Of a stretch of 35,266 nucleotides of DNA, positions 291-32,997 are shown piece after piece. Each line of letters starts with the position of its first letter. The stretch's first letter is position 1. The notes under the pieces were generated by a model, which did no database searches, was not told the DNA's origin, and saw only the letters and a list, made by a program, of their open reading frames with translations. Position numbers and translations under genes: made by a program. Origin of the DNA: Candidatus Giovannonibacteria bacterium RIFCSPLOWO2_02_FULL_45_28 (lineage in GTDB: Bacteria > Patescibacteriota > Minisyncoccia > UBA11713 > 2-01-FULL-45-33); the NCBI GenBank assembly GCA_001780725.1, contig MFIM01000029.1, positions 1-35,266 on the forward strand, given 5' to 3'.

Positions 291-1664
291 ATGGATATTA
301 AATTGCATAATGCCCGAATCGCGGGAGCAAGGATTAGAATCCCGCAAAATCCCGGGGTATATTTTTTCAGATCCGCCAGCCAGCGGAGCGCGGGCAAAAT
401 TTTGTACATAGGAAAAGCGGCAAATTTGCGCGCAAGGCTTAATTTTTATTTGCGCTTGCAAAAAGAAGCGCCTCCCAAATTAACCGCCCTGCTTAAAGAA
501 GCAAGTGAGATCAATTGGGAAATTTTGGGATCAGAAGCCGAAGCCTTAATCCGCGAAGCCGAGTTAATAAAAAAATACCGCCCAAAATATAACGTGCTGA
601 TGCGCGACGACAAGCAATATTTTTATGTCGGGTTTTCCAAAGAGAAATTCCCAAAAATATTCGTAACGCATCAACCACAACAAACTAAAAACTATAAACT
701 ATCAACCACAAACTACGTCGGTCCGTTCACCGAAGGCGGCGCACTGCGGTCTGTGCTTAAAACATTGCGGCACGCGTTTCCGTATTGCACATGCAAGAAA
801 CCGCACAAAAGATTGTGCTTCAACGCGCGCATTGGGAGATGTTTGGGGTTTTGCTGCATTGCCGTACCCAGGAAGAAGTCGCCCTCCTCGAAGTCCGACT
901 TCAAATCTCCAAAGAAGTCGGACTTCTTCCCGAGCGACTTCGAGGATGGCGCGGCGAACTATCGCAAAAACATCTCCGCAATTAAACAAATTCTCTCCGG
1001 AAAAAATCAGTCGCTTCTTCGCGAACTCAAAAAAGAAATGCATAAATTATCTGATTCCAGAAAATACGAAGAGGCCGGCAAAATTCGCGACCAAATCATG
1101 GCGCTTGAGAAAATTTTCGCGCACCGCGGAGTCATTAAGCAGGACCTGCCCACTGAATTCGGCAAGGCCGTGCGCGCATTGGAATCAATTTTGGGTGTAT
1201 CCGGCATCAACAGAATAGAATCCTACGACATCGCAAATATACATGGCCGATTCGCATACGGGTCTATGGCCGTTTTCGCTGACGGAAAAATTCAAAAAAG
1301 TGAATATCGGCTTTTTAAAATCAAAAGCATACGCAGCTCAAACGACCCGGCAATGCTCCGCGAAGTTATTTTCCGGCGCTTAAGGCGCCGTGAATGGCCT
1401 TATCCGCAAGTGATTATTGTTGATGGCGGACGAGCCCAGCTCGGCGCCGCCTTGGCGGTTAAACCGCCAAGTAAAATTATCGCCTTAACCAAAAATCGCA
1501 AGCATGTCGGCGATCATATTTTTATCCAAAATCGCCGCGAACCGATCCCTTTAGGCAACATCCCGGAACCGCTAAAAAATCTGATTTTAATGCTTGATTC
1601 CGAAGCCCACCGCTTCGCGATTTCTCACTACCGAAAACTGCACAGAAAACGCCTGTTGACATAA
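291..1664 (+). CDS. uvrC: Excinuclease ABC subunit C, lacking HhH domain
   Basis: UvrC makes the two incisions around bulky DNA lesions after UvrA/UvrB damage recognition. In order there is an N-terminal GIY-YIG nuclease domain (GVYFF about residue 22, LYIGKA about 38), a cysteine cluster of the kind linked to an Fe-S site (CTCKK...CFNARIGRCLGFC), a UVR helical segment (EAGKIRDQI) and the RNase H-like endonuclease (YDIANIHG, VDGGRAQL, EAHRFAISH, carrying the Asp/Asp/His set). The protein stops right after the EAHRFA motif at 457 residues; typical UvrC is about 600 and ends in tandem helix-hairpin-helix motifs, which are absent. Three repeat insertions lie in variable regions: a heptamer array, a 60-bp palindromic block and a 21-bp palindrome. 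No SD precedes the ATG. The family call is secure. The short C-terminus looks native, since the stop falls cleanly after a domain. Confidence 0.93.
   Translation: MDIKLHNARIAGARIRIPQNPGVYFFRSASQRSAGKILYIGKAANLRARLNFYLRLQKEAPPKLTALLKEASEINWEILGSEAEALIREAELIKKYRPKYNVLMRDDKQYFYVGFSKEKFPKIFVTHQPQQTKNYKLSTTNYVGPFTEGGALRSVLKTLRHAFPYCTCKKPHKRLCFNARIGRCLGFCCIAVPRKKSPSSKSDFKSPKKSDFFPSDFEDGAANYRKNISAIKQILSGKNQSLLRELKKEMHKLSDSRKYEEAGKIRDQIMALEKIFAHRGVIKQDLPTEFGKAVRALESILGVSGINRIESYDIANIHGRFAYGSMAVFADGKIQKSEYRLFKIKSIRSSNDPAMLREVIFRRLRRREWPYPQVIIVDGGRAQLGAALAVKPPSKIIALTKNRKHVGDHIFIQNRREPIPLGNIPEPLKNLILMLDSEAHRFAISHYRKLHRKRLLT
682..716 (+). repeat. Heptanucleotide array inside uvrC
   Basis: Five consecutive 7-mers of the pattern AAACTAN / CAACCAC are visible. 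They encode a polar stretch (TKNYKLSTTN) just before the conserved YVGPF motif, where other UvrC proteins have a short linker. The period of 7 shifts the codon frame at each unit, yet the stretch stays open. Similar 7-mer arrays occur in the hexomutase and ychF genes. Confidence 0.7.
886..945. repeat. 60-bp nested palindromic insertion in uvrC
   Basis: The outer arms CCTCGAAGTC (886-895) and GACTTCGAGG (936-945) are perfect inverted repeats. Inside lie GAAGTCCGACTTC (890-902) and its exact reverse complement GAAGTCGGACTTC (914-926), each also self-palindromic. The block is in frame and encodes a Ser/Lys/Asp/Phe-rich segment (repeated SDF) between the Cys cluster and the UVR region. The base pattern suggests a mobile or expandable palindrome rather than selection on the protein. 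Confidence 0.75.
1451..1471. repeat. REP-A palindrome variant in uvrC
   Basis: CTTGGCGGT-TAA-ACCGCCAAG has perfect 9-bp arms. It differs from the five other copies in this window only in its centre (TAA instead of GGC/GCC). It is read in frame as LAVKPPS within the RNase H-like domain, between the VDGG motif and the following strand, where UvrC proteins vary in length. Confidence 0.8.
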
Positions 1665-16068: not shown

Positions 16069-18339
16069 TTAAAAATCAAAATTGGTGTAAGGAGTATCGT
16101 CATCGGCCCGCTCGGCGGGCTTTTTTTCTTTCTTATTTTTGTCTTCTTCCTCCTCTTCATAAACAGCACTTTCTTCCGGCTTGGCGGTGGCACCGCCAAG
16201 TTGTCCGGCGGGACGCTTAATCAAAACCTCGCGCGGCTTGGCGCCCTCCCCTGGGCCGATGATGCCGCGGTCTTCCAACATATCAAGAATGCTCGCCGCG
16301 CGCGCATAGCCGATCCTCAAACGGCGCTGAAGATACGACGCGGATGCCTTTTGCGCTTCCGCTACCAGCTTTTTTGCTTCCTCATAAAGCTCGTCATCAA
16401 TTTCTTCATCATCCTCTATGTTTCTGCCGGAAACGCCCTCAACGGTGGGAAATTTCAAATCCAAATCAATCGGTTCTGCCTCAAACTCCGATGCAGACTC
16501 CGCAACATATCCCGCCACCTTCTTTACCTCCTTCTCGGAAATAAAAGCCCCCTGAATGCGCTTGGGCTTTGAAGTGTCCCCCGCCAAATAAAGCATGTCT
16601 CCATTTCCCAAAAGTTTTTCCGCGCCAGACATATCCAAAATAGTGCGCGAATCCACGCCGGAAGCCACCTGTAGCGCGACTCTCGCCGTAATATTCGCCT
16701 TAATAAGACCCGTTATAACCTCAACCGAAGGGCGCTGTGTTGATATAATCAAATGAATTCCCACCGCACGCGACATCTGCGCCAAGCGCACAATTGACGC
16801 TTCCATCTCCCGCGGATACGCCGCCATAAGATCTGCCAACTCGTCTATAATTATCAATATGTTCGGCAAAATTTCGTCGTAAGATTTTTCTTTTATCATC
16901 TCCGTGTTGTATGAAACGATGTCCCGCACGCCCGCTTCTTCCAGCTTTTCATACCGCCGCTCCATTTCGCGCACAGCCCACCTTAAAGCAATAATGGACT
17001 TTTTAGCATCGGTAATCACGGGTGTGAGTAAATGCGGAAGTGAATTATAAATCGTTAGCTCAACCCTTTTTGGATCAATCATCAAAAACCGCAGAAACTC
17101 CGGTGAGTTTTTATAAAGCAAACTCACTACCAAAGTGTGAATGGCAATGGATTTCCCTGAACCAGTTGCGCCAGCAATCAAAAGGTGCGGCATTTTTGCG
17201 ACATCCGCAAAAATCGCGCGCCCGGAAACATCGCGCCCCAAAACAAAACTAAGCGGCTGCGCGCTTTTAAACTCCTCCGTGCCCAAAAGGCTGCGCAGGC
17301 CGACTAAAGCAATTGACCGATTGGGAACCTCAATCCCCACCAAAGACCTTCCAGGAATCGGCGCTTCAATCCTCAAGGGGTGCGCCGCCAAAGCCAAAGC
17401 CAAATCGTTTTGAAGCGCCGTAATGCGCGCCAGCTTCACTCCTTCGGCGGGTTTTAGGGTATATTGCGTAACAGAAGGCCCAACGTTTACCTCGGACATT
17501 TCCACATCAATCCCAAAATTCTGAAGTGTTCTTTTTATAATGTTGGCGTTGGCTTTTATGTCGCCGGACGAAGGCGTTCCTTTGTCGTCCTCCAAAAGAT
17601 CCGGCGGTGGTGGTTCGTATTTAAATTCGGAGGCGCGCTCGGTTTTGGAAGGTTTTTTTGGGGGGGTAAAAAAGGTTCTTTGCAAAAAAGATTGCGGCGG
17701 TTCTTCTGCTTTCTCTTCGCCGCTTTCCGGCCCGCCTGCCAGCGAGGCAGGGAAAACACTCGGTGTTTTTTGGGCCTCAACACCGAGTGTTGGGGAGGAA
17801 AGCGGCTCAACCATAGGCAGTTTTTCCTCGCGTTTTGCTAATTCTCCACCAGCTCTCCGAAATCTCAACGGGATGTTGAGCATAACAAGAAGCGATGCGG
17901 CAACCAAAGCGGAAAAAATCACGAGTGCCGCCCAAAAATCAAATAATTTCAAAAGCGGGTAAGAAACCAAAAAACCAGCGTATCCGCCGGTATATTCTCC
18001 GAACAAAACGTCCGAAATTCCAAGAGAACTTATTAAAAACAAAACGCCGCCTACTAAAGTTGTTTTAAAAATCCGGCTTCCCAGTGAGAAAAGAAACGAA
18101 AGTCCCGCCAAAAAAAATGCCAGAGAGGCAAGCCAAAAACCCTTGCCGAAAAGGAAAATGAGAGACCGCTGGGTAACGCTTCCTATCAGTCCGGCCTCGT
18201 CAAAATAAGCCAGCGCCAAAACCAAAGACACCGCGAAAGCCAAAATCGCCCAAATGGAGTTTTTCGTCTCCGGCCGCAAACTCTCATGCCACCCCGCCCT
18301 TTTTTGCGCGCCCTTCTCCTTATTTTTCTTCTTCGCCAT
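16069..18339 (-). CDS. ftsK: DNA translocase FtsK/SpoIIIE
   Basis: FtsK is anchored at the division septum and pumps DNA to finish chromosome segregation. There are four N-terminal transmembrane helices (about 28-160), a low-complexity linker (about 165-260), then the motor with LLIAGATGSGKSIAIH (Walker A, residues 390-397), MIDPKRVEL, ILIIIDELADLM (Walker B, about 499), STQRPSVEVITGLIKANI, and a C-terminal winged-helix gamma domain (SYLQRRLRIGYARAASILDMLEDRGIIGP). At 756 residues it matches compact FtsK proteins. The linker holds two palindrome-derived stretches (LGVEAQKTPSV, PASLAGG). A third (QLGGATAKP) follows the gamma domain, after which comes an acidic tail. The promoter has TTAAAA-17-TATAAT with an extended -10, 8 nt before the ATG. 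Confidence 0.96.
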   Translation of the reverse strand: MAKKKNKEKGAQKRAGWHESLRPETKNSIWAILAFAVSLVLALAYFDEAGLIGSVTQRSLIFLFGKGFWLASLAFFLAGLSFLFSLGSRIFKTTLVGGVLFLISSLGISDVLFGEYTGGYAGFLVSYPLLKLFDFWAALVIFSALVAASLLVMLNIPLRFRRAGGELAKREEKLPMVEPLSSPTLGVEAQKTPSVFPASLAGGPESGEEKAEEPPQSFLQRTFFTPPKKPSKTERASEFKYEPPPPDLLEDDKGTPSSGDIKANANIIKRTLQNFGIDVEMSEVNVGPSVTQYTLKPAEGVKLARITALQNDLALALAAHPLRIEAPIPGRSLVGIEVPNRSIALVGLRSLLGTEEFKSAQPLSFVLGRDVSGRAIFADVAKMPHLLIAGATGSGKSIAIHTLVVSLLYKNSPEFLRFLMIDPKRVELTIYNSLPHLLTPVITDAKKSIIALRWAVREMERRYEKLEEAGVRDIVSYNTEMIKEKSYDEILPNILIIIDELADLMAAYPREMEASIVRLAQMSRAVGIHLIISTQRPSVEVITGLIKANITARVALQVASGVDSRTILDMSGAEKLLGNGDMLYLAGDTSKPKRIQGAFISEKEVKKVAGYVAESASEFEAEPIDLDLKFPTVEGVSGRNIEDDEEIDDELYEEAKKLVAEAQKASASYLQRRLRIGYARAASILDMLEDRGIIGPGEGAKPREVLIKRPAGQLGGATAKPEESAVYEEEEEDKNKKEKKPAERADDDTPYTNFDF
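16180..16200. repeat. REP-A palindrome in ftsK
   Basis: CTTGGCGGTG-G-CACCGCCAAG has perfect 10-bp arms. It is read as LGGATAK after the gamma domain, in a dispensable-looking tail. It uses the same frame as the copy inside the RAYT gene. Confidence 0.9.
17735..17751. repeat. REP-C palindrome in ftsK linker
   Basis: CCTGCC-AGCGA-GGCAGG. The same arms and spacing (CCTGCC-N5-GGCAGG) recur in the TPR gene at 32895-32911. It is read as PASLAGG. Confidence 0.6.
17755..17791. repeat. REP-B palindrome in ftsK linker
   Basis: AACACTCGGTGTT (17755-17767) and AACACCGAGTGTT (17779-17791) form a perfect 13-bp inverted repeat with an 11-nt loop. It is read as TLGVEAQKTPSV. The TPR gene has the same left arm, the same 11-nt gap and a shortened right arm, read as VGVDGPQTPSV. 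Confidence 0.8.
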
Positions 18340-18347
18340 TGGACTTA

Positions 18348-18376
18348 ATTATAGCAAAAATAAAGAGGAGTTTTAA
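18348..18376 (-). promoter_or_regulatory. ftsK promoter, overlapping an upstream terminator
   Basis: On the minus strand: TTAAAA (18371-18376), a 17-nt spacer, then TGC-TATAAT (18348-18353), 8 nt before the ATG. The -35 lies in the loop of the upstream gene's terminator hairpin, and the -10 lies within its T-tract. Confidence 0.65.
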
Positions 18377-18385
18377 GCTCCTCTT
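18356..18385 (-). terminator. Terminator of the 68-aa zinc-ribbon gene
   Basis: On the minus strand AAGAGGAG-loop-CTCCTCTT is followed by TATTTTT. The hairpin begins inside the last codons of the 68-aa gene and runs into the ftsK promoter. Confidence 0.6.
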
Positions 18386-18579
18386 GTGCTCTTCTTTGTA
18401 ACACAGCTTTCACAATGATAAAACAATTTATCAAAGGTTTTTTGTTTTTTGTGCCAAAAACGTATAGGCTTATGGCACCACACGCAGGTTTGCGGATTTT
18501 TAACGCTGTTTATTAAAAGATATAGCATCCAACCACCAATTAAAAGTCCTGTGCCAGCCCAAACTACCAAAACAAGCAT
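18373..18579 (-). CDS. Small membrane protein with a CxxC zinc ribbon
   Basis: The 68-residue protein starts with a hydrophobic helix (LVLVVWAGTGLLIGGWMLYLLI, 2-23). It then carries two CxxC pairs, CVWCHKP and HCESC, about 22 residues apart with basic residues between, which look like a single zinc ribbon on the cytoplasmic side. GAGAGG lies about 7 nt before the ATG, so unlike many neighbours it has an SD. TGG-TAGATT about 23 nt upstream is a possible -10. The family is unknown to me. It sits between ftsK and the secreted-protease genes on the same strand. Confidence 0.65.
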   Translation of the reverse strand: MLVLVVWAGTGLLIGGWMLYLLINSVKNPQTCVWCHKPIRFWHKKQKTFDKLFYHCESCVTKKSTRGA

Positions 18580-18629
18580 ATTTGACCTCTCGGGAATCTA
18601 CCAAAAGTAAAACACGACAGAAGGAAAAT

Positions 18630-18668
18630 AGCAAACAATAAAACCGCGCCTATTTCACGGGCGCGGTT
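18630..18668 (-). terminator. Terminator of the trypsin-like protease gene
   Basis: On the minus strand AACCGCGCC-loop-GGCGCGGTT is followed by TTATTGTTT. The 9-bp GC-rich stem includes the last codons and the stop of the protease gene. Confidence 0.8.
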
Positions 18669-19381
18669 GCGGGATCCATATTCAAAAATTCTTTGTAAAT
18701 GCGCGTGGCCCAAGAAATTCTGGTCTTACTGCAGTCAGCAGTATCCGCATATCTATCCTTGATCAAGCCGATGGCGTAATAGTTGTTCTCGTGCCAAAAA
18801 AGCACAGAGCCGCCGGACATACCTGCGCATGCGGCAAAATTTAATTTAAGTTCATTTTTTCCTTTGGCTGCAATTACAGCAGTGTCCAGCATAAATTGTG
18901 CGCCGAAATAAGATCCTTCTTCATTAGAGTCAAACTCATTTAGCAATATCGTATAAATTACAACCGGGCTTAAATCATCATAGATACCGCTATTTTCCAA
19001 AACCGGAATGCCGTATGGTCTTATTTCTTTTGGCAAGTCAACAGCAAGAACTGCGTAATCAAGCGTTTCATCCAGTTTTAAAATTTTTGCGTCATAAAAC
19101 CGGCCTTCATATAAAACAGATACCTTCGGCTCACCACCGGACGGATCTCCGGGTTCACATAAAACATCATGTCCAGCCGTCAAAACTAGACGCCGATTCG
19201 GATCGCTCTCAACAAAAAATCCATTACCCCAATAAAATAACCCCCGGCAGTTTGTGCTCACAACAAGCATAGCTTTTTTGACAAGTCTTATGGCGTCTCC
19301 TTGAGGAGTGGCGTTGGCTGTGCCGCCAAGAATCGCCGCGCCAAATAATAATAAAAGAACTTTGATAGCTAGTCTTTTCAT
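18650..19381 (-). CDS. Secreted trypsin-like serine protease
   Basis: This is a trypsin/S1-fold endopeptidase predicted to be exported. A signal peptide (MKRLAIKVLLLLFGAAILGGTANA) precedes a 220-residue domain with a readable catalytic triad: His71 in LVLTAGHDVLC, Asp108 in DETLDYAVLAVD, and Ser189 in CAGMSGGSVLF (GxSGG). The cysteines at 45, 75 and 185 could form disulfides. It has no PDZ domain, so it is unlike HtrA/DegP and closer to stand-alone S1 proteases. The start is ATG 19381, which has AAAGG 8 nt upstream and begins the signal peptide; the ORF track adds 20 residues upstream. It lies downstream of two other exported-protein genes but behind a terminator, so it is probably its own unit. 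Confidence 0.85.
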   Translation of the reverse strand: MKRLAIKVLLLLFGAAILGGTANATPQGDAIRLVKKAMLVVSTNCRGLFYWGNGFFVESDPNRRLVLTAGHDVLCEPGDPSGGEPKVSVLYEGRFYDAKILKLDETLDYAVLAVDLPKEIRPYGIPVLENSGIYDDLSPVVIYTILLNEFDSNEEGSYFGAQFMLDTAVIAAKGKNELKLNFAACAGMSGGSVLFWHENNYYAIGLIKDRYADTADCSKTRISWATRIYKEFLNMDPATAPVK

Positions 19382-19424
19382 AGCCCAACCTTTCAAAAGT
19401 CTCTCTATACATAACTTAATCCGA

Positions 19425-19455
19425 CAAAAGAAAAAAGGCAACTAGTTAGTTGCCT
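19425..19455 (-). terminator. Terminator after the metalloprotein-lipoprotein operon
   Basis: On the minus strand AGGCAACTA-AC-TAGTTGCCT is followed by TTTTTCTTTT. It is a perfect 9-bp stem and lies 7 nt past the lipoprotein stop. Confidence 0.9.
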
Positions 19456-19461
19456 CTTTAG

Positions 19462-21021
19462 TTATTCGCCCAGAGCATAATTCCCCCAGTTCACACTAGA
19501 TTCGCCGGAGGTGGGATCGGCAATCATTCTGCGCTTCTCAAACACACCATCGCCATCCTCGTCCTCTAGCCTAAACCATTTTCCTCCGTAACGATAATCA
19601 ATATTCTTTATATATCTGCCGAAGCGCATTACATCCGCCTCTTCGGCAACAAGACCTCTTCTCCTAATTCTTAAAGTATTGGACAACGCGAACGAATCAA
19701 CAATATCTCTATTCATATATTCTGCCTTAGGAACCCAGTACTCAATAACGGCAGTTTGGTTGTTCTCTTTAAATTCTCTTATCAGCACAAGCAGTTTCTT
19801 AAGCTTTTCCTTGTTCTCCAGTTCTTGATCCTGCGGAGTTTTCGGTTTATCGTAAACTATCTTTAAATTCTGCGCAAGAGTGCGGTAACTGTATCCAAAA
19901 GGCAATTTCCAATCGCCGCGCTCCCATATCTCAACGTCTATTTTTTTGCCCATCGGAGCAATGGCGATATAGACGGGCACATCGAGTGGGCGGTGGCGTT
20001 TTGGGTTTTGTTCATTGTTTTGCGGTTTTTCGTACAAAGGCTCAAGAACTCTCCGCCTGTATGACTCGTCGGCATAAAGCTCCCTGCCAGTCACCAGCGG
20101 CAAAAAAATTCTTTCTACCGTGTCCGGGCTCCCAAAGCCGCTCTCACCTTCTTTGTCGTAGTCCATAACCAATACGCTTACGCTATTTCCTCCGGTAGCC
20201 ACAAAACCGCGTATCGCCGGCTTGGATTCTTTGCGCGCATTGCCGTCAATTCTATATACTTCTATGTATTGCGCAATATTATCAGCGGGTTTGTCCAAAT
20301 CGGGAGTGATCTTATAAGAATCAATCCGCCAGCCTCTTTGAATCTGCTCCCAACTGAATTCGTTGGGATCGCGCAAATCAGTAATTTTTTTGCCGTAACT
20401 TTGCTTATCAAAGACGGTAAAGGTATCCACCAAAACAAGAATTTCTCGTTCCTTTGCCGCCTCAAGATAAGAAGCAGAGAAAGGAATTTTGAACACATCT
20501 CTTAATGGATAAAGCATCCTCATGGAGTACGCTTGGCGGCCGTATTCAAAAAAATATTCCGCCTCTTTGCCCAAAAACTCTTTTGGAAGTTCGCCCACCA
20601 AATCCGTAAACTTGTTGTACGAATCCATGTAGAGCATTCGGTTGATGAGCCATAGCGTGATTTTTTCTTCTTTGGTTATGCCTTTCCGCAAACCAGGGAA
20701 CCAATCAATAAATCTAGCGAGCTCCGGGTCGTCGTAACTCAAAAACTTGTTAAGCGCGTCCGCGCGGTCTTTAAGCACAGCCATCTGGTCGCTCACACTA
20801 ATCACCTTGCGATTAAGTTCCCACTTGCCGATTTTTTCGTTGTAATTTGCTACCTTTTTGAGAACAGCTCGTTCGCATCCTATCGCGGCCTGCTTGTCGG
20901 TGTATTTATATTCCTTGGTGGAATCTTTGGCAATTTGCCTGCATGCATACCAAGTTGGAGCTACGCAAGCCTGCACAAACATCAATCCGGCGCCAACAAC
21001 AAACCATTTAACGCGCTTCAT
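19462..21021 (-). CDS. Lipoprotein of unknown function (519 aa)
   Basis: I do not recognise the family. The N-terminus MKRVKWFVVGAGLMFVQAC is a lipoprotein signal with lipobox VQAC and Cys19 as the acylation site. The mature part is mixed, with a helical first third (DRADALNKFLSYDDPELARFIDW...) and a beta-rich remainder. A late DEDGDGVFEKRR resembles a single EF-hand-like calcium loop, and an Asn/Asp/Arg-rich segment DYRYGGKWFRLEDEDGDG precedes it. No enzyme motif stands out. Its ATG overlaps the stop of the HExxH gene (ATGA), so the two are translationally coupled and probably act together on the cell surface. It could be a chaperone, inhibitor or substrate-binding partner of that protein. 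Confidence 0.8.
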   Translation of the reverse strand: MKRVKWFVVGAGLMFVQACVAPTWYACRQIAKDSTKEYKYTDKQAAIGCERAVLKKVANYNEKIGKWELNRKVISVSDQMAVLKDRADALNKFLSYDDPELARFIDWFPGLRKGITKEEKITLWLINRMLYMDSYNKFTDLVGELPKEFLGKEAEYFFEYGRQAYSMRMLYPLRDVFKIPFSASYLEAAKEREILVLVDTFTVFDKQSYGKKITDLRDPNEFSWEQIQRGWRIDSYKITPDLDKPADNIAQYIEVYRIDGNARKESKPAIRGFVATGGNSVSVLVMDYDKEGESGFGSPDTVERIFLPLVTGRELYADESYRRRVLEPLYEKPQNNEQNPKRHRPLDVPVYIAIAPMGKKIDVEIWERGDWKLPFGYSYRTLAQNLKIVYDKPKTPQDQELENKEKLKKLLVLIREFKENNQTAVIEYWVPKAEYMNRDIVDSFALSNTLRIRRRGLVAEEADVMRFGRYIKNIDYRYGGKWFRLEDEDGDGVFEKRRMIADPTSGESSVNWGNYALGE

Positions 21022-22688
21022 CGCGGTAATCCTCCGTTTCCGGTAGCGCGCCTTAAAAACAAACGCGCCACGAAATCACCCTGTTTTGCGTCTTCCCAAA
21101 GCTTTTCCAGCATCTTTTTGGCTTCTGCCTGTTCTTTTTTTGGAAGTAAAAGCAACTTGCTGTCAGCGGGGCATTTAGCGTCTTGCGCGGAAAAAAGTTT
21201 GGGCATATCGTTTTCAAGTTTTACCTTGCTGCCAGTCTGCTTCATTGCTTCTTCCGCCAAACGATCAATACGTCCAGCTTCTTCTTCTCTCATCAGCCAC
21301 TCTCGCGTTTGAACTTCCGGCGGTATAACTTTGCCGTCTTTGTCTTTTTTATCAGGATCAAAAAGCCCGGCTGGCTCGTAGTTGAGCGCAAAATTAATCC
21401 GCAACGCGGCGGCGTTGTCGCAAAATTTTACGTTTACCGCTGACCAGAAAAATTGCTCCGTGTAAAACTCCACAAGAAATTTTTCCACGAAACCCTTGAG
21501 TTCCTTTGTGATCTTCTCAACGCGCTCCGCATTTTTCTCAAATCCTTCCCTATTGACATCAGTTAATCCGACGCTGTCCAATGTCATTGGGTAAAGTCGG
21601 CGCAACACCTCATCTGTATCATAGCCGAAATAAATTTTTACCAAGTCCCTCCAGTGTACAAAATAGGGTTGGAGTAAAAACTCGCTTATGGTAGCTGGAT
21701 AAAGCCCTGTTGCCATGTCATCCCACACTTCAAGATCAAAATAAGCACCGAGTATGCTGTTTTGCAAATACGGATTGGCATGGGTAAATTCATGCATTGT
21801 AATACGACTTCTGCCAACAACATATTCGTACATCAACGAATCCAAGCTGACATAAACCACCCCTTCCGTCTCAGGCAACCTAAAATACGCAAGCCCGCCT
21901 TGAAACTGCCCGGGCCCAATAATGAAGAGATCTGGAACAAAATCCTGCGGGCGGACATATGGAACAGGAAGTATATCGCTTAATTTCAGGTTGTTTTGAA
22001 AATCAACAACTTCGTCAAGACGGGTCGGGTAAGCAGGATCATCTAAAATTTTTGCGCGGTTATCCAGTACCTTTTTTAGAAACCCGAAGTCCTCGTAATA
22101 CTTAACATTGGCCTCAACAGATCGGCGCGCCACCGTATTTTGAATATATTCCTTAACTTTTTCAAATTGCGCCCACCCCAAAATTTGCCGCACGGCACTC
22201 CACTCGGCATCCGAAATCGCACCATTTACCCAGCGAACTTTATATTGTTCGTAAAGCGAGGAAAATTCTGCCAGATTTTTTTCTCCCTCTTTCACCCAAA
22301 GCGCGTACATTCCGTCTCGGGTAAAATGGTGGCCCAAATATACTATGTGCACATCGCGGCCAAACATTGAAACGTCGCCTTGGAGCGTGGAATCTGCGCG
22401 GTAACCTGGAGCGGATCTGTCTATAAGCGTCCCGCCTACAGGCTCATAGCGCAAAACTTTGGTGCGCCACATTCTCCTCAATTCCTGATATTGATCCCAC
22501 TGCGTCTTCTGCGGCTCTAAGCTCAAAAGAAAATATGGCTTTTCTGGAATGCTCGCCATCATCTCAATTTCTTTTTTGGAAAACTTGTCCAATACTTTTT
22601 CGGCTTTCGCGAGATCAAGTTCCGCATAAACGTTGTCCGTAAAAATGATAAAAACCGCAATCAAGCCAAGCAGTAAAATACGCTTCAT
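21018..22688 (-). CDS. Secreted HExxH metalloprotein, putative peptidase
   Basis: The 556-residue protein begins with a signal peptide (MKRILLLGLIAVFIIFTDNVYA, cleavage after VYA). Near residue 299 it has ITMHEFTHANPYLQN, a perfect HExxH zinc-site pattern in a helical setting, preceded by a beta stretch (GVVYVSLDSLMYEYVVG) as in many zincin peptidases. A third ligand may be one of the acidic residues in FDLEVWDDMATGLYPATISEF shortly after. It resembles no family I can name, so peptidase activity is inferred from the motif alone. The start is supported by AAGGAG 7 nt upstream. It is the first gene of a two-gene operon with the lipoprotein. A TGT-TAGATT box with a TTTACT -35 is a plausible promoter. 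Confidence 0.75.
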   Translation of the reverse strand: MKRILLLGLIAVFIIFTDNVYAELDLAKAEKVLDKFSKKEIEMMASIPEKPYFLLSLEPQKTQWDQYQELRRMWRTKVLRYEPVGGTLIDRSAPGYRADSTLQGDVSMFGRDVHIVYLGHHFTRDGMYALWVKEGEKNLAEFSSLYEQYKVRWVNGAISDAEWSAVRQILGWAQFEKVKEYIQNTVARRSVEANVKYYEDFGFLKKVLDNRAKILDDPAYPTRLDEVVDFQNNLKLSDILPVPYVRPQDFVPDLFIIGPGQFQGGLAYFRLPETEGVVYVSLDSLMYEYVVGRSRITMHEFTHANPYLQNSILGAYFDLEVWDDMATGLYPATISEFLLQPYFVHWRDLVKIYFGYDTDEVLRRLYPMTLDSVGLTDVNREGFEKNAERVEKITKELKGFVEKFLVEFYTEQFFWSAVNVKFCDNAAALRINFALNYEPAGLFDPDKKDKDGKVIPPEVQTREWLMREEEAGRIDRLAEEAMKQTGSKVKLENDMPKLFSAQDAKCPADSKLLLLPKKEQAEAKKMLEKLWEDAKQGDFVARLFLRRATGNGGLPR

Positions 22689-22755
22689 GGCTATTCTCCT
22701 TTGTCAAAACCCATGCTCAATCTAACAAAAAGCCCAGAAAAGTAAAGTGCGCGAA

Positions 22756-22814
22756 ATTCTATCCTTAGGGATAGAATGACCCGGCTCGATATATCAAAAT
22801 TTTGATATTTCGAG
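22756..22814. repeat. Two adjacent palindromes upstream of the HExxH gene
   Basis: ATTCTATCC-TTAG-GGATAGAAT (22756-22777) has perfect 9-bp arms. A 30-bp AT-rich palindrome (22785-22814) with arms CTCGATATATCAAAA and TTTTGATATTTCGAG has one mismatch. They lie between RAYT and the HExxH operon. They lack a T-run and differ in sequence from the REP-A family. They may be remnants of another palindromic element or protein-binding sites. Confidence 0.65.
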
Positions 22815-22921
22815 AAGGCTGCCCTTTCCTTTCTGGGATTTTGCCAGATAAGCCAGATTGTTTACATCTATCTATAGGCTACCATGCCAAGCAAAAAGCT
22901 GTCAAACGCCAAGCAACAGCC

Positions 22922-22963
22922 TTATTCTTCCTTCGCCGCCTCCAGTTTTTGAGATATTCTTAT
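22922..22963 (-). repeat. Decayed duplicate of the rpoC 3' end
   Basis: On the minus strand this stretch reads KLEAAKEE-stop and aligns with the true rpoC end at 23703-23745 ([10 protein letters not shown]-stop). There are about three mismatches, one missing triplet and one missing A over ~42 columns. The copy lies on the far side of the RAYT/REP block from rpoC, in the same orientation. Confidence 0.8.
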
Positions 22964-22978
22964 TCTTTGAGCCCACCA

Positions 22979-22999
22979 CTTGGCGGTGCCACCGCCAAG
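22979..22999. repeat. REP-A palindrome abutting the RAYT stop
   Basis: CTTGGCGGTG-C-CACCGCCAAG ends at the base next to the RAYT stop codon (TAA, 23000-23002). Its centre base is C on the + strand, so it is inverted relative to the other exact copies. Confidence 0.9.
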
Positions 23000-23653
23000 T
23001 TATTCAAAAAGCAAGCTACCCAGTTCTTTATCGCGTTGTTTTCTCTCCAAAGTATCCGCTAATGAATTCTCTGCAAATTCTTTATACTCCAGCTTGTTTT
23101 TAAACTGCTCCGATATGATTTTCTTTTCACAAAAATTGTCTAAATGTTTATACACATATTCATCTAGGCTCGATTTACTTAACTTGGCGGTGGCACCGCC
23201 AAGTTTGTGAACACGATAATTTAGATTTACATAAGCGCTTAGACTTAAGAGGTAGTTATTTGAATTAATATGCTTGGCTTTAAAAACACTTTGAAACAAA
23301 TATCCACTTCTCTGATAACGATTATTGAAATACCAAGTATAACCACCGCCCAAACGTTTCATGAATTCGCTTATTCCTTCATTTGCAATTTGTTGTAAAA
23401 TAAAATGATAATGATTGGGATTTAAGCAATATGCAATAAATTTCACTAAACGCCTTGACTTTCGTTTTGATCTAATATGCGGATCTAAGAATGAGTTTTC
23501 ATAAATACTCCCGATTGGATTTACTGTATTAAATTCATCCATGCTTTGAAAAAACCTTTGCAAATCATAAAGATCTGAAAATATTTTTCTACGATCCGTG
23601 CCTCTATTATAGATGTGGTAAAATTCGCCATTAACGAATGGTGGATTTTTCAT
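23000..23653 (-). CDS. REP-associated tyrosine transposase (RAYT, Y1_Tnp/IS200-like)
   Basis: Y1 HUH transposases nick and join single-stranded DNA; RAYTs are domesticated relatives that act on REP palindromes. NGEFYHIYNRGTDRRKIF opens the family fold. The HUH motif is HYH (81-83) in YCLNPNHYHFILQQ, and a likely nucleophile is Tyr105 in LGGGYTWYFNNRYQRSGYLFQSVFKAKHI. The start is ATG 23653 (217 aa); the ORF track's longer form runs into rpoC in another frame. The gene is flanked by two REP-A palindromes and contains a third, in frame, as KLGGATAKL near residue 150. Everything needed for activity looks intact. TGT-TATATT ends 6 nt before the ATG. Confidence 0.92.
   Translation of the reverse strand: MKNPPFVNGEFYHIYNRGTDRRKIFSDLYDLQRFFQSMDEFNTVNPIGSIYENSFLDPHIRSKRKSRRLVKFIAYCLNPNHYHFILQQIANEGISEFMKRLGGGYTWYFNNRYQRSGYLFQSVFKAKHINSNNYLLSLSAYVNLNYRVHKLGGATAKLSKSSLDEYVYKHLDNFCEKKIISEQFKNKLEYKEFAENSLADTLERKQRDKELGSLLFE
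23183..23203. repeat. REP-A palindrome inside the RAYT gene
   Basis: CTTGGCGGTG-G-CACCGCCAAG, read as LGGATAK between NYRVH and SKSSLDEYVYK, a loop region of the transposase. It is the same sequence and frame as in ftsK. Confidence 0.9.
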
Positions 23654-23659
23654 ACATTT

Positions 23660-23688
23660 AATATAACACTTGGCGGTGGCACCGCCAA
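23660..23688 (-). promoter_or_regulatory. RAYT promoter borrowing its -35 from a REP-A copy
   Basis: On the minus strand TTGGCG (23683-23688, from the REP-A arm), a 17-nt spacer, then TGT-TATATT (23660-23665), 6 nt before the ATG. The -35 matches TTGACA only at TTG and one further position, so the extended -10 probably carries most of the activity. Confidence 0.45.
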
Positions 23689-23689
23689 G
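23669..23689. repeat. REP-A palindrome between RAYT and rpoC
   Basis: CTTGGCGGTG-G-CACCGCCAAG. It lies between the rpoC stop (23703) and the RAYT start, in inverted orientation to the copy at 22979-22999, so the RAYT gene is bracketed by the pair. Confidence 0.9.
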
Positions 23690-23702
23690 TGAGTATTGAG
23701 TA

Positions 23703-26700
23703 TTATTCCTCCTCCTTTGCCGCTTCCAGTTTTTTGAGATATTCCTTTCGATAGCCAGTGCCAGCGGGGATAAGACGGCCGATGATAACATTTTCTTTGA
23801 GGCCACGCAACCGGTCTTCTTTGCCTTCAATTGACGCGTTTGTAAGAACGCGCATCGTTTGCATAAAGGAAGCCGCTGAAAGGAAACTCTCCGTAGTCAG
23901 CGCAACATTGGTAATGCCCATCATAAGCTGTGCCGCTTTCGCCGGTTGGCCGCCTTCTTTTCTTGCACGCAAATTTTCTTCGCGTAATTTGGATTTTTCA
24001 ATTATTTCGCCCAAAGAAAGTTTTGTTGATCCGGAATCTTTTACCCGCACTCTGGAGAACATCTGCCTGACTATGGTTTCTATGTGCTTATCGTTGATCG
24101 ACGCGCCCTGGAAAGTATAAAGCTGCTGGACTTCCGAAATAATATAATTTTGAGCCACCTGTATTCCGGCGACAGATAAAAGCTCTTTGATGTCTGCGGC
24201 GCCTTCCGTTATTCTTGTGCCAGGCCGGACTGTTTCGCCGGCCGAAACCAAAATCGTTCTGCCGAAAGGAACTTTAAATTCGTTCTCTCCTGCCGGAGAG
24301 ATAATTTTGACAATTTTGTCTCGTCCGCCAGCTGTGCCCGCAGCATCCGGTGCGTCGGCAATCACCGAAACAGCGCCCGAAACGTTTGAAAGAATCGCCG
24401 AATTTTTCGGCATGCGCAACTCAAAAATTTCTTCAACCCGCGGGAGCCCCATTGTAATGTCCGCCGCTCCGGCGATCCCGCCGACGTGGAAAGTGCGCAT
24501 GGTTAGCTGTGTACCCGGCTCTCCAATTGCCTGCGCAGCCACAATGCCAACGGCTTCGCCGAGCTTTACCGGAGTGTTAGATCCGAGATCGTAGCCGTAG
24601 CAAAGCTGGCAAATTCCCCTTCTGGAGCGGCAGGTAATCGGCGAACGAATAATCACGCTCTCCGCGCCAGAGGAGGCGATTTTTTCCGCATCAGCAAGGG
24701 ATACCAAGTGGCCCTTTTTAAACAAAATTTTTCCGGCAAATTGCAAATCAACCGCCAAAACCCGCCCGAATACGCGGCCTGCAAAATTTTTCCCCAATCT
24801 TTCAAAATCTATTCTCCTGACCTCAAACCCCAGCTCATCTTTGCAATCCGGCTCAGAAATGATAATATCCTGCGAAACATCAACTAAGCGGCGGGTCAAA
24901 TATCCTGCAGCGGCGGTCTTAAGCGCCGTGTCGGCAGTTCCTTTCCTTGCAGCGTGGGTTGATATAAAGTATTCCAAAACTCCAAGGCCTTCTTTGTAGC
25001 TTGCGAGAATCGGCAATTCAATAATACGCCCGGCGGGATTTACCACCAAGCCTTTCATGGAAGCCAACTGGTTAATCTGCGCCCAATTGCCGCGCGCGCC
25101 GGATGAAACCATATAATGAATCGGTCCGAAAGGATTAAGAGTTGCGGGAGCCAATTCATCAACTTTTGTTTTAACATTAGTCCAAACTTCTATAATTTTT
25201 TCATAACGTTCCTTGTCGGTAAGTAGGCCCTGTTCATATTGGCTTTCAATAGTGCGGGCGCCCTCTTTGGCTTCTTTTATAAAAGCTTGTTTTTGTAACG
25301 GCACCTGAATATCATCCATCCCCCACGAAATTCCTGATTCGGTGGAATGTTTAAAACCGAGGCTTTTAATGCGGTCAAGAATTATTGGCGTTTCATCAGT
25401 GCCGTACCGCTGAATCATATTTGAAACGGCCTTTACTAAATCTTTCTTTTGTATTTCCTGATTTAAAAATGCGTAATCCCTCGGCAAAACGCTGTTAAAA
25501 ATAAGCCTGCCAACGGAAGTTTCCAGAATATCACCCGTACCCACGCCCCGACTCGGCGAGGCAGGTTGGTATTTGGGGGTTTTGGTTGTTTTAACAAAAA
25601 TTTTTGCGTGTATGTCAACAAAACCGTAATCGTAAGCTAAAATGGCTTCGTTTGGGCTGGAAAAATGCTTACCTTCGCCTTTGGCGCCGGGGCGGATGCG
25701 CGTAAGGTACGCAATGCCCATAACAATATCTTGAGTGGGAGTGACAACAGGCTCGGCGTTTCCCGGCTTTAAAAGATTTTTGACCGAAGCCATAATATCC
25801 CTCGCTTCCTTTTGAGCCTCATCGGTCAACGGCACGTGCACAGCCATCTGGTCTCCGTCAAAATCCGCGTTAAAAGCGACGCAAACCAGAGGATGAAGCT
25901 GGATGGCATTGCCCTCTATAAGAATCGGCTGGAAAGCCTGAATGCCGAGGCGGTGCAATGTCGGTGCGCGGTTTAAAAGAACATATTTATCTTTAATCAC
26001 TTCTTCCAAACTTTCCCAAACTTCCTGCTTCAGATCGTCAATAAGGCGCCCGGCGCCCTTAATAGTATGCGCGAGGTCGCGCGCCATTAAATCGCGTATG
26101 ACAAACGGACGGAAAAGTTCCAACGCCATATGCTTCGGCAACCCGCATTGGTGAAGCTTTAATTCCGGACCGACAACAATCACGGAACGCCCGGAATAAT
26201 CCACGCGCTTACCCAAAAGATTTTGCCTAAAACGGCCCTGCTTGCCTTTAAGCATATCGGCCAACGATCTTAAGGGGCGCTTTTGCGCCTGCGAAGTCGC
26301 TGCTGGGCCTTGAGTCCTCTTAATTGAATTGTCTAGTAGGGCGTCTATGGATTCCTGCAGCATTCTTTTTTCGTTGCGCACAATAACCTCCGGAGCCTTA
26401 ATCTCCAGAAGTTTTTTTAAGCGGTTATTTCTGTTGATTACGCGCCTGTACAAGTCGTTGATGTCAGAGGTTGCATGTCGCCCGCCTTCCAGCTGCACCA
26501 TCGGGCGCAAAGCCGGAGGTATTACAGGGATTGATGAAAGGAACATCCATTCCGGCCGCACTCCGGATCTGACCATAGACTCAATCAAGCGAAGCCTTCT
26601 CAAAATTCTTTTTTTCTGCAAAGGCGTTGCGGCTTCCAAATCGTTTTTCAGGCGCGAGACCGTTGTATTCAAATTTATTTCCGAACAAATTTTACGCAAA

Positions 26701-27350
26701 GCCTCGGCGCCTATTCCGGCTTCAAACATATGCGCGTACTTAAGGCTGAAACGGTGATATTCCACTTCCGCCAATACTTTGTGCTCCTCTATACCTTTAA
26801 TTTCAGAGACTGCGGTATCGTACGCCGCCTTCAACGCTTCCTTATCCGCCGTACTCGCGGTCTTGGTTTTTGATTTAAACTCTTTACCTACGGCATCCAA
26901 AAGTTCGCGCCTCGCTTTTTCATCAACGCGAGTAATTACGTAGCCGCCGAAATAAATCACCCGTTCCAAATCCGGCACCGACATGTCCAAAATAAGGCCT
27001 ACGCGCGAAGGTACGCCTCTTAAAAACCAAATATGCGAAACCGGAGAGGCAAGCTCAATATGCCCCATGCGCTCTCTCCGGACAATGGAACGCGTAACCT
27101 CCACTCCACATTTGTCGCAAATGATGCCTTTGTATCTGACGCGCTTGTATTTTCCGCAATAACATTCAAAATCTTTTTCCGGTCCGAAAATGCGCTCATC
27201 AAAAAGGCCGTCTTTTTCAGGGCGCTGCGTGCGATAATTGATAGTTTCCGGCTTGGTGACTTCTCCCCTTGACCAGCTCAAAATCTTCTCCGGCGAAGCG
27301 AGGCGTATAGCCAACGATTTAAAATCTGTTATTTTTTGCGTTGTTTCCAT
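23703..27350 (-). CDS. rpoC: RNA polymerase subunit beta'
   Basis: The beta' subunit holds the catalytic Mg2+ of RNA polymerase. [15 protein letters not shown] is the invariant active-site motif. [23 protein letters not shown] is the N-terminal zinc site, [13 protein letters not shown] the second, and [19 protein letters not shown] belongs to the C-terminal clamp/trigger region. At 1215 residues it is typical of compact bacterial beta' subunits without large insertions. Around 25550 a palindrome-derived stretch ([13 protein letters not shown]) sits before [12 protein letters not shown]. It starts 12 nt after the rpoB stop, in operon. The stop is intact even though a RAYT/REP block and a second copy of the 3' end lie just beyond it. 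Confidence 0.99.
25546..25569. repeat. Palindromic repeat in rpoC shared with RNase J
   Basis: It contains GACTCGGCGAGGC (25550-25562), identical to the core of the RNase J 24-bp repeat. It is read on the opposite strand here as QPASPSRG, in a variable spot ahead of the conserved VGRLIFN. Confidence 0.65.
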
Positions 27351-32244: not shown

Positions 32245-32997
32245 TTAAATGTTGTTTAATTCTTCTTCTATTGCCGCTTTATTCGGCGGATTTAACTTCA
32301 AGGCCTCTTCGTAGTATTTGCGGGCGTTGGGCTTGTCTCCCTGATCTTTATAATAGGAAGCCAAAACGACTTTCAGATAATAATCGCTCTGATTTTTTTG
32401 GATTCCTTCCAGCAAAATAGGCACGGCTTGGCTTGATTTCTCCGTGTAAGAAAGCGCGTAAAGATCAAAAAGGTTTTTGTATCCGGGAATAAAATCAGGT
32501 TTTACTGAAATTGCCTGCTTAATATATTTTTCGGCTTTGGCAAAATCTTTTAAGTAAAAATGGTAAAGGTCGCCGAGATTGTTAAAAGCGACGTAATCCG
32601 CAGGACGGATAGCGGACGCATACTGCCAAGCCAAAGACGCGCCTTCGTAATCCTCCAAAAACTTTCTCAAAATTCCCAACTGCAGCCATCCCTGCAGATA
32701 ATTCGGCTCGCTTTTCAACTGGAGAGACAAATCTTTTAATTCTTTTGTTTTCGCGGCATCTCCTGCGGGTATTTTTCGGTCTAAAGCTTGATTGGCTAAT
32801 ATTTCGAGCTCACCTCCGCCCTCTTCAACACTCGGTGTTTGTGGCCCATCAACACCGACCTCCGCACTTGGCGGTGGCACCGCCAAGTTGCTTGCCTGCC
32901 GGACAGGCAGGTTCCGCCAAATGAAAAACCCAGCTGCGCCTGCCGCGATTAAAATTAAAATCAAAATTACCAAAGCAATTAAGTAAGTTTTTGGCAT
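32245..32997 (-). CDS. Membrane-anchored TPR protein
   Basis: TPR domains are helical protein-protein scaffolds. One N-terminal helix (LIALVILILILIAAGAAGFFIW, about 5-26) is followed by a ~60-residue Pro-rich linker and then about four TPR-like units from residue ~95. Recognisable stretches include NYLQGWLQLGILRKFLEDYEGASLAWQYA, DYVAFNNLGDLYHFYLKDFAKAEKYIKQAI and YLKVVLASYYKDQGDKPNARKYYEEALKLNP. The linker is built almost entirely from three palindromic repeats (REP-B, REP-A, REP-C) in frame. At 250 residues it is a typical anchored TPR scaffold, and the partner is unknown. TGG-TATTAT lies 6 nt before the ATG. Directly upstream is the terminator of the S-layer-like gene. Confidence 0.85.
   Translation of the reverse strand: MPKTYLIALVILILILIAAGAAGFFIWRNLPVRQASNLAVPPPSAEVGVDGPQTPSVEEGGGELEILANQALDRKIPAGDAAKTKELKDLSLQLKSEPNYLQGWLQLGILRKFLEDYEGASLAWQYASAIRPADYVAFNNLGDLYHFYLKDFAKAEKYIKQAISVKPDFIPGYKNLFDLYALSYTEKSSQAVPILLEGIQKNQSDYYLKVVLASYYKDQGDKPNARKYYEEALKLNPPNKAAIEEELNNI
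32827..32858. repeat. REP-B repeat in the TPR gene
   Basis: AACACTCGGTGTT, an 11-nt gap, then AACACCGA. This is the same left arm and gap as the ftsK copy, with the right arm cut short. It is read as VGVDGPQTPSV. Confidence 0.75.
32867..32887. repeat. REP-A palindrome in the TPR gene
   Basis: CTTGGCGGTG-G-CACCGCCAAG, read in a different frame from the ftsK copy, as LAVPPPS (compare LAVKPPS in uvrC). Confidence 0.9.
32895..32911. repeat. REP-C palindrome in the TPR gene
   Basis: CCTGCC-GGACA-GGCAGG, with the same arms and spacing as the ftsK linker copy. Together with the two preceding repeats it fills the linker after the membrane helix. Confidence 0.6.

Follow-up and report, generated by a model that had tools for sequence, protein, structure and literature searches.

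The window, a 35,266-nucleotide stretch, is contig C29 of a Candidatus Giovannonibacteria genome (Parcubacteria/Paceibacteria of the Patescibacteria) with a size of 886 kb and 98% completeness. It carries two adjacent genes, A and B, that almost certainly form a genuine two-gene module. A encodes an exported HExxH protein and B a predicted lipoprotein; the same pair is found in other Patescibacteria and in two phage lineages, and it has moved laterally. Judging from the sequences, there is about an even chance that this module acts at the cell envelope as a metallopeptidase with its lipoprotein partner, a functional unit inherited, lost and transferred as a whole. The serine protease gene that follows in the window, C, lies outside the module.

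All three genes are on the minus strand between ftsK (16069–18339) and rpoC (23703–27350), with positions and export signals as described in the initial annotation (Table 1). The signal peptide of A is of the Sec type (MKRILLLGLIAVFIIFTDNVYA), and its HEFTH motif spans residues 299–303. A Pfam search matched C to Trypsin_2 (PF13365; E = 9.5e-9, 36.6 bits against a cut-off of 27.6), and the catalytic His, Asp and Ser are all in place, in agreement with its earlier description as a trypsin-like protease with an intact triad; its start, however, had to be moved. Since the listed TTG start (ORF 18650–19441) falls inside a terminator-like hairpin, the true start is most likely the inner ATG at 19381, giving a protein of 243 aa. 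The hairpin comes directly after the B stop codon and its stem comprises 12 bp, which suggests that C is probably transcribed separately from B. We also considered C as the defence protein LmuA (PADLOC, 5.4e-6) and rejected this assignment, since only the trypsin-like stretch aligns.

Table 1. Features of the A–B locus and REP-like repeats in the window.
Feature	Position	Strand	Basis
Gene A, exported HExxH protein, 556 aa	21018–22688	−	Open reading frame; homologues in bacteria and phages
Signal peptide of A, residues 1–22	22623–22688	−	N-terminal basic residues, a hydrophobic core and the cleavage motif VYA in the sequence
HEFTH-x16-E, putative zinc site (H299, E300, H303 and E320 of A)	21729–21794	−	None of the four residues varies across 18 aligned homologues
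Stop codon of A overlapping the B start codon by ATGA (translational coupling)	21018–21021	−	Sequence
Gene B, lipoprotein partner, 519 aa	19462–21021	−	Open reading frame; profile matches; phage homologues
Lipoprotein signal of B, lipobox FVQAC, Cys19	20965–21021	−	Sequence; Cys19 invariant in 18/18 homologues
DEDGDGVFEKR acidic loop near B C-terminus, possibly Ca2+-binding	19531–19563	−	Sequence
Terminator-like hairpin between B and C	19432–19459	−	12-pair stem, 4-nt loop, T run
Gene C, exported Trypsin_2 serine protease, 243 aa	18650–19381	−	Pfam; judged a slot neighbour, outside the module
REP-like palindrome copies	16180–16203, 22979–23002, 23183–23206, 23669–23692, 32867–32890; weak copy 1451–1474		

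The strongest evidence for the module is its distribution. A single-protein query with A had matches in 10 of the 384 class genomes, and an independent query with a B profile matched the same ten and no others; were the two sets independent, they would coincide with a probability of 1/C(384,10) = 6e-20. A search of 380 genomes of the phylum returned only the window's own genome, and these two sets, both within the phylum, are what the bacterial searches covered. A is directly followed by B in all ten genomes, in at least three kinds of genomic place: rpoC-A-B-C-ftsK in the window and G004 (L011), rpoC-A-B-MFS-S41-ftsK in G003, A-B-ftsK in G100, topA/dprA...A-B...pth in G042 and G201, uvrC...A-B...groES/groEL side in G373, G353 and G343, and another place in G179. 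Together with the phage copies described below (YS40_Isch and nine huge-phage contigs) the genes are adjacent in 20 of 20 cases; the 4-nt overlap in the window has counterparts of 4–14 nt in most other copies, with short gaps in two.

The distribution of C is different. A relative of C sits beside the pair in G004, there is none in the other eight A/B-containing genomes, and none accompanies the pair in phages. Conversely, G001, G007 and G009 carry C relatives at the same position between rpoC and ftsK, all without A or B, while in G002 and G006 rpoC and ftsK are nearly adjacent. Since the content of the interval differs among relatives and is nearly nil in these two, the rpoC–ftsK interval is a variable slot in this Giovannonibacteria family. 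The initial annotation had proposed a three-gene set, and the adjacency of A, B and the trypsin-like gene in the window and G004 speaks for it; the distribution of C, the nearly empty slots, the phage pairs that lack C and the terminator after B speak against a single system, and we strongly disfavour it. Co-occurrence elsewhere, the absence of which had been named beforehand as refuting, was found for A and B in ten of ten genomes but not for C, which is missing from eight. The idea of an undescribed system survives for the exported pair, without the protease.

Across G000–G009 the slot (window 18340–23702; L010, L011, L035–L037, L040–L043) holds exported and transport genes, namely A/B, trypsins, an S41 protease, MFS, SbmA/BacA and ChaN. 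In three relatives without A/B, a gene close to that for the trypsin encodes a small exported protein of ~140 aa with a C-terminal [IV]xWFxSxE motif (L035 137–553, L036 9781–10215, L037 6363–6773). A REP-like palindrome, ACTTGGCGGTGGCACCGCCAAGT, is present in five to six copies in the window. Three of them surround a Y1_Tnp (IS200-like/REP-associated) transposase gene in the rpoC–A interval (23000–23692; Pfam E = 1e-7), and in-frame copies encode LGGATAK within FtsK and the transposase ORF. The transposase gene has a GC3 of 0.30 versus ~0.5 in core genes and is therefore a recent arrival. The GC3 of A and B (0.47–0.50) equals that of the core genes of the genome and gives no support for recent foreign DNA at this site; acquisition of the pair by the window's genome, if any, is old.

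Patescibacteria are generally regarded as living on other cells, and A could digest surface proteins of the host bacterium while B keeps A on the surface, a role in attachment or nutrition that would suit the trypsin, S41 protease, SbmA/BacA and ChaN genes occupying the same slot in relatives. However, presence in 10 of 384 genomes means that the pair is dispensable for this lifestyle, and the phage copies would go unexplained, so we consider this reading quite unlikely.

Conservation within A is concentrated on the candidate active site. Only nine columns are invariant across the 18 homologues, which diverge down to ~20% identity, and these include H299, E300, H303 and E320, as well as Y342 and Y409; Y289 and A323 are nearly invariant. 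Since the HExxH residues are among so few invariant columns, the motif is far from a chance match. E320 lies 17 residues beyond the second His of HExxH in an E-x-x-A-like context. Gluzincins (MEROPS clan MA(E)) combine HExxH with a downstream Glu, a pattern that HExxH-x16-E fits, and the natural reading is therefore that A would be a gluzincin-like zinc peptidase. Neither A nor B matched a Pfam, NCBIfam, PHROGs, PADLOC or PDB sequence family, whether searched as single sequences or as profiles, which bears out the earlier statements that the 556-aa exported HExxH protein (Pfam, NCBIfam, PHROGs, PDB sequences) and the 519-aa lipoprotein coupled to it by ATGA belong to no known family. A match of one member to Peptidase_M30 (E = 0.29) was taken as chance, and no known peptidase family was matched by A. 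AlphaFold2 models built on five sequences had mean pLDDT values of 44.8 (A) and 45.8 (B), too low to place the HExxH; the HExxH and Glu320 regions are predicted to be helical in this low-confidence A model, and Foldseek matches of such models were discarded as noise.

B is conserved along its length (445–562 aa). Besides the lipobox Cys19, its invariant residues include D287, D289, E367 and others, Trp and Pro positions among them. Most bacterial copies and YS40_Isch retain the DxDGDG loop, which is degenerate in huge phages, and for this reason we rejected it as a defining feature of B. The lipobox exposes a puzzle: it is kept in all bacterial copies although no LspA (PF01252) scored above the cut-off in the 17 genomes searched, among them the ten that carry B. 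Lgt was not found in the window's genome (G000) either, in an imperfect search whose control also missed B. subtilis Lgt. Either these bacteria possess a diverged, unrecognised lipidation pathway, or the invariant Cys has another role. LspA-negative genomes encode other proteins with a clear lipobox, for example at L021 3658–4164 and 7814–8590 and L023 13867–14232.

The strict one-to-one pairing, the coupled translation and the full-length conservation of B, with its invariant D287/D289 and Trp/Pro positions, would also be expected if A were a dedicated processing protease that cleaves B, and B a surface effector or receptor matured in this way. We recognised no conserved cleavage site, and maturation alone does not explain carriage by phages; this alternative is rather unlikely.

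The phage copies give the pair its wider context. A tblastn search of 50,697 phage records yielded an A relative from Thermus phage YS40_Isch (E = 2e-12 and 9e-18) and from no other phage of this set, and a search of plasmids with A gave no match. Direct comparison identified a B relative next to it (E = 2e-10), with a 7-nt overlap and the lipobox LTGC. In YS40 and TMA, which are 87–88% identical around the site, the dNMP kinase gene leads straight to the tRNA-Thr region with no A or B; with the site empty in these relatives, the YS40_Isch pair is an insertion of accessory genes.

A pattern scan of IMG/VR recovered seven contigs with B, and a scan with their A raised the total to nine. The count is a lower bound, as the scans relied on degenerate peptide patterns and are incomplete; scans with single proteins and with A5, A10 and A11 gave no match, and A4 and A13 did match. 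The nine contigs represent one huge-phage group, with sizes including 170, 224, 456 and 463 kb; they are taken to be viral from the collection that they belong to and from the neighbouring genes, and they carry no host label. A and B are adjacent in all nine, mostly with a 4-nt overlap, at a fixed place between a DNA polymerase exonuclease-like gene on one side and RuvC-like and UvsX-like genes on the other, with Rad50/SbcC-like and phosphoesterase-like genes downstream. As in bacteria, the phage copies have signal-like N-termini in A and a lipobox in B. With dN/dS values of 0.07–0.22 for A and B, the pair is a settled part of these genomes, maintained under purifying selection. The huge phages also encode a secreted protein of ~220 aa about 3 kb upstream of A, possibly an outer-membrane barrel, with no significant Pfam match (L061 2193–2843, L065 3093–3752, L066 2717–3454).

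Export signals and a lipoprotein in phages could point to a lysis pair, in which A opens the cell wall and B disrupts the outer membrane in the manner of an o-spanin. Stable residence in bacterial chromosomes, the size of B and the location of the huge-phage pair beside replication and recombination genes, outside a lysis cassette, all argue against this, making it very unlikely.

In maximum-likelihood analysis the main branches of the A tree match those of the B tree (path-distance r = 0.87), and in both the phage copies occupy two distinct positions amid the bacterial ones. YS40_Isch is placed beside the Giovannonibacteria-type group (support 96/92 for A and 80/91 for B), and the huge phages group with G179, G373, G353 and G343. 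The long branches of G100, YS40_Isch and G201 leave the deep order of the trees uncertain, and the trees do not show the direction of transfer. Families f1, f7 and f27 are split, and the window pair is 49–50% identical to that of G042, from another family, versus 41–45% to those of its own-family members G003 and G004.

Such obligate pairing of genes of similar size with agreeing trees and a patchy, laterally moved distribution is also compatible with antagonism, A being an exported enzyme that damages competitors and B the membrane-anchored lipoprotein that makes the producer immune; some bacteriocins do have lipoproteins as immunity factors. However, B is as large as A and equally strongly conserved, toxin–immunity pairs usually diverge fast, yet dN/dS is low here, and a fixed position amid the replication and recombination genes of huge phages would be odd for a bacteriocin. 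We regard antagonism as improbable.

The initial annotation had suggested that the proteins act on the surfaces of host or neighbouring cells or help surface proteins to mature, which is possible; with the pair carried by two unrelated phage lineages, a mobile module of phages and bacteria that acts on the envelope becomes the likelier role. In the mechanism that we propose for this module, A would be exported through Sec and bind Zn2+, with His299, His303 and Glu320 as ligands and Glu300 as the catalyst. B would be tethered by its N-terminal Cys to the membrane, on its outer face, as the dedicated partner of A, either holding A at the surface or presenting or limiting its substrate, and together they would cleave or remodel a protein in the envelope of the producing cell. 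In an infected cell, the most plausible outcome would be that competing phages are shut out (superinfection exclusion), and a patescibacterium would use the pair to protect its own surface or give it another shape.

We favour exclusion or envelope remodelling because huge phages, the Thermus myovirus and Patescibacteria all face other phages, and because phage lipoproteins have been proven or proposed to be exclusion factors. Superinfection exclusion calls for a phage-borne, envelope-located product, and the phage copies have predicted export signals. Exclusion is less usual in strictly lytic phages, and the phages concerned may be strictly lytic, which would count against it. Superinfection exclusion proper is, by analogy, perhaps the function, a suggestion that we hold to be less likely true than not. 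Equally tentative is the full proposal of an undescribed two-component envelope system that closes cells to competing phages and travels in one piece between viruses and bacteria. If true, it would imply exchange of envelope-related genes between huge or Thermus phages and reduced Patescibacteria, and an envelope module of this kind would bear on patescibacterial exported proteins, the functions of most of which are unknown. YS40_Isch, a cultivable phage with a genetically tractable host and the natural pair-less relatives YS40 and TMA, makes a gene pair from uncultivable organisms directly testable.

Among known systems, A resembles gluzincins of clan MA(E) in its HExxH, with an invariant Glu downstream at a distance that would fit a third zinc ligand, and is exported besides; it differs from them in having no sequence-family membership and in being strictly paired with B. 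The lipoprotein Ltp of phage TP-J34 is a proven superinfection-exclusion factor and, like B, a phage-borne surface lipoprotein (PMC3952083). Unlike B, Ltp acts alone and belongs to temperate Streptococcus phages, and we found no sequence relation between the two; B is a lipoprotein of ~500 aa that accompanies a putative metalloenzyme and is encoded by a Thermus myovirus, by huge phages and by bacteria, and exclusion is suggested for it by analogy. Genes for lipoproteins and exported proteins in variable regions of IN93-like Thermus phages have likewise been proposed to act in superinfection exclusion (PMC11437467). These are accessory genes for lipoproteins or exported proteins, as are A and B in YS40_Isch, although the phage type is different and the genes are other than A and B.
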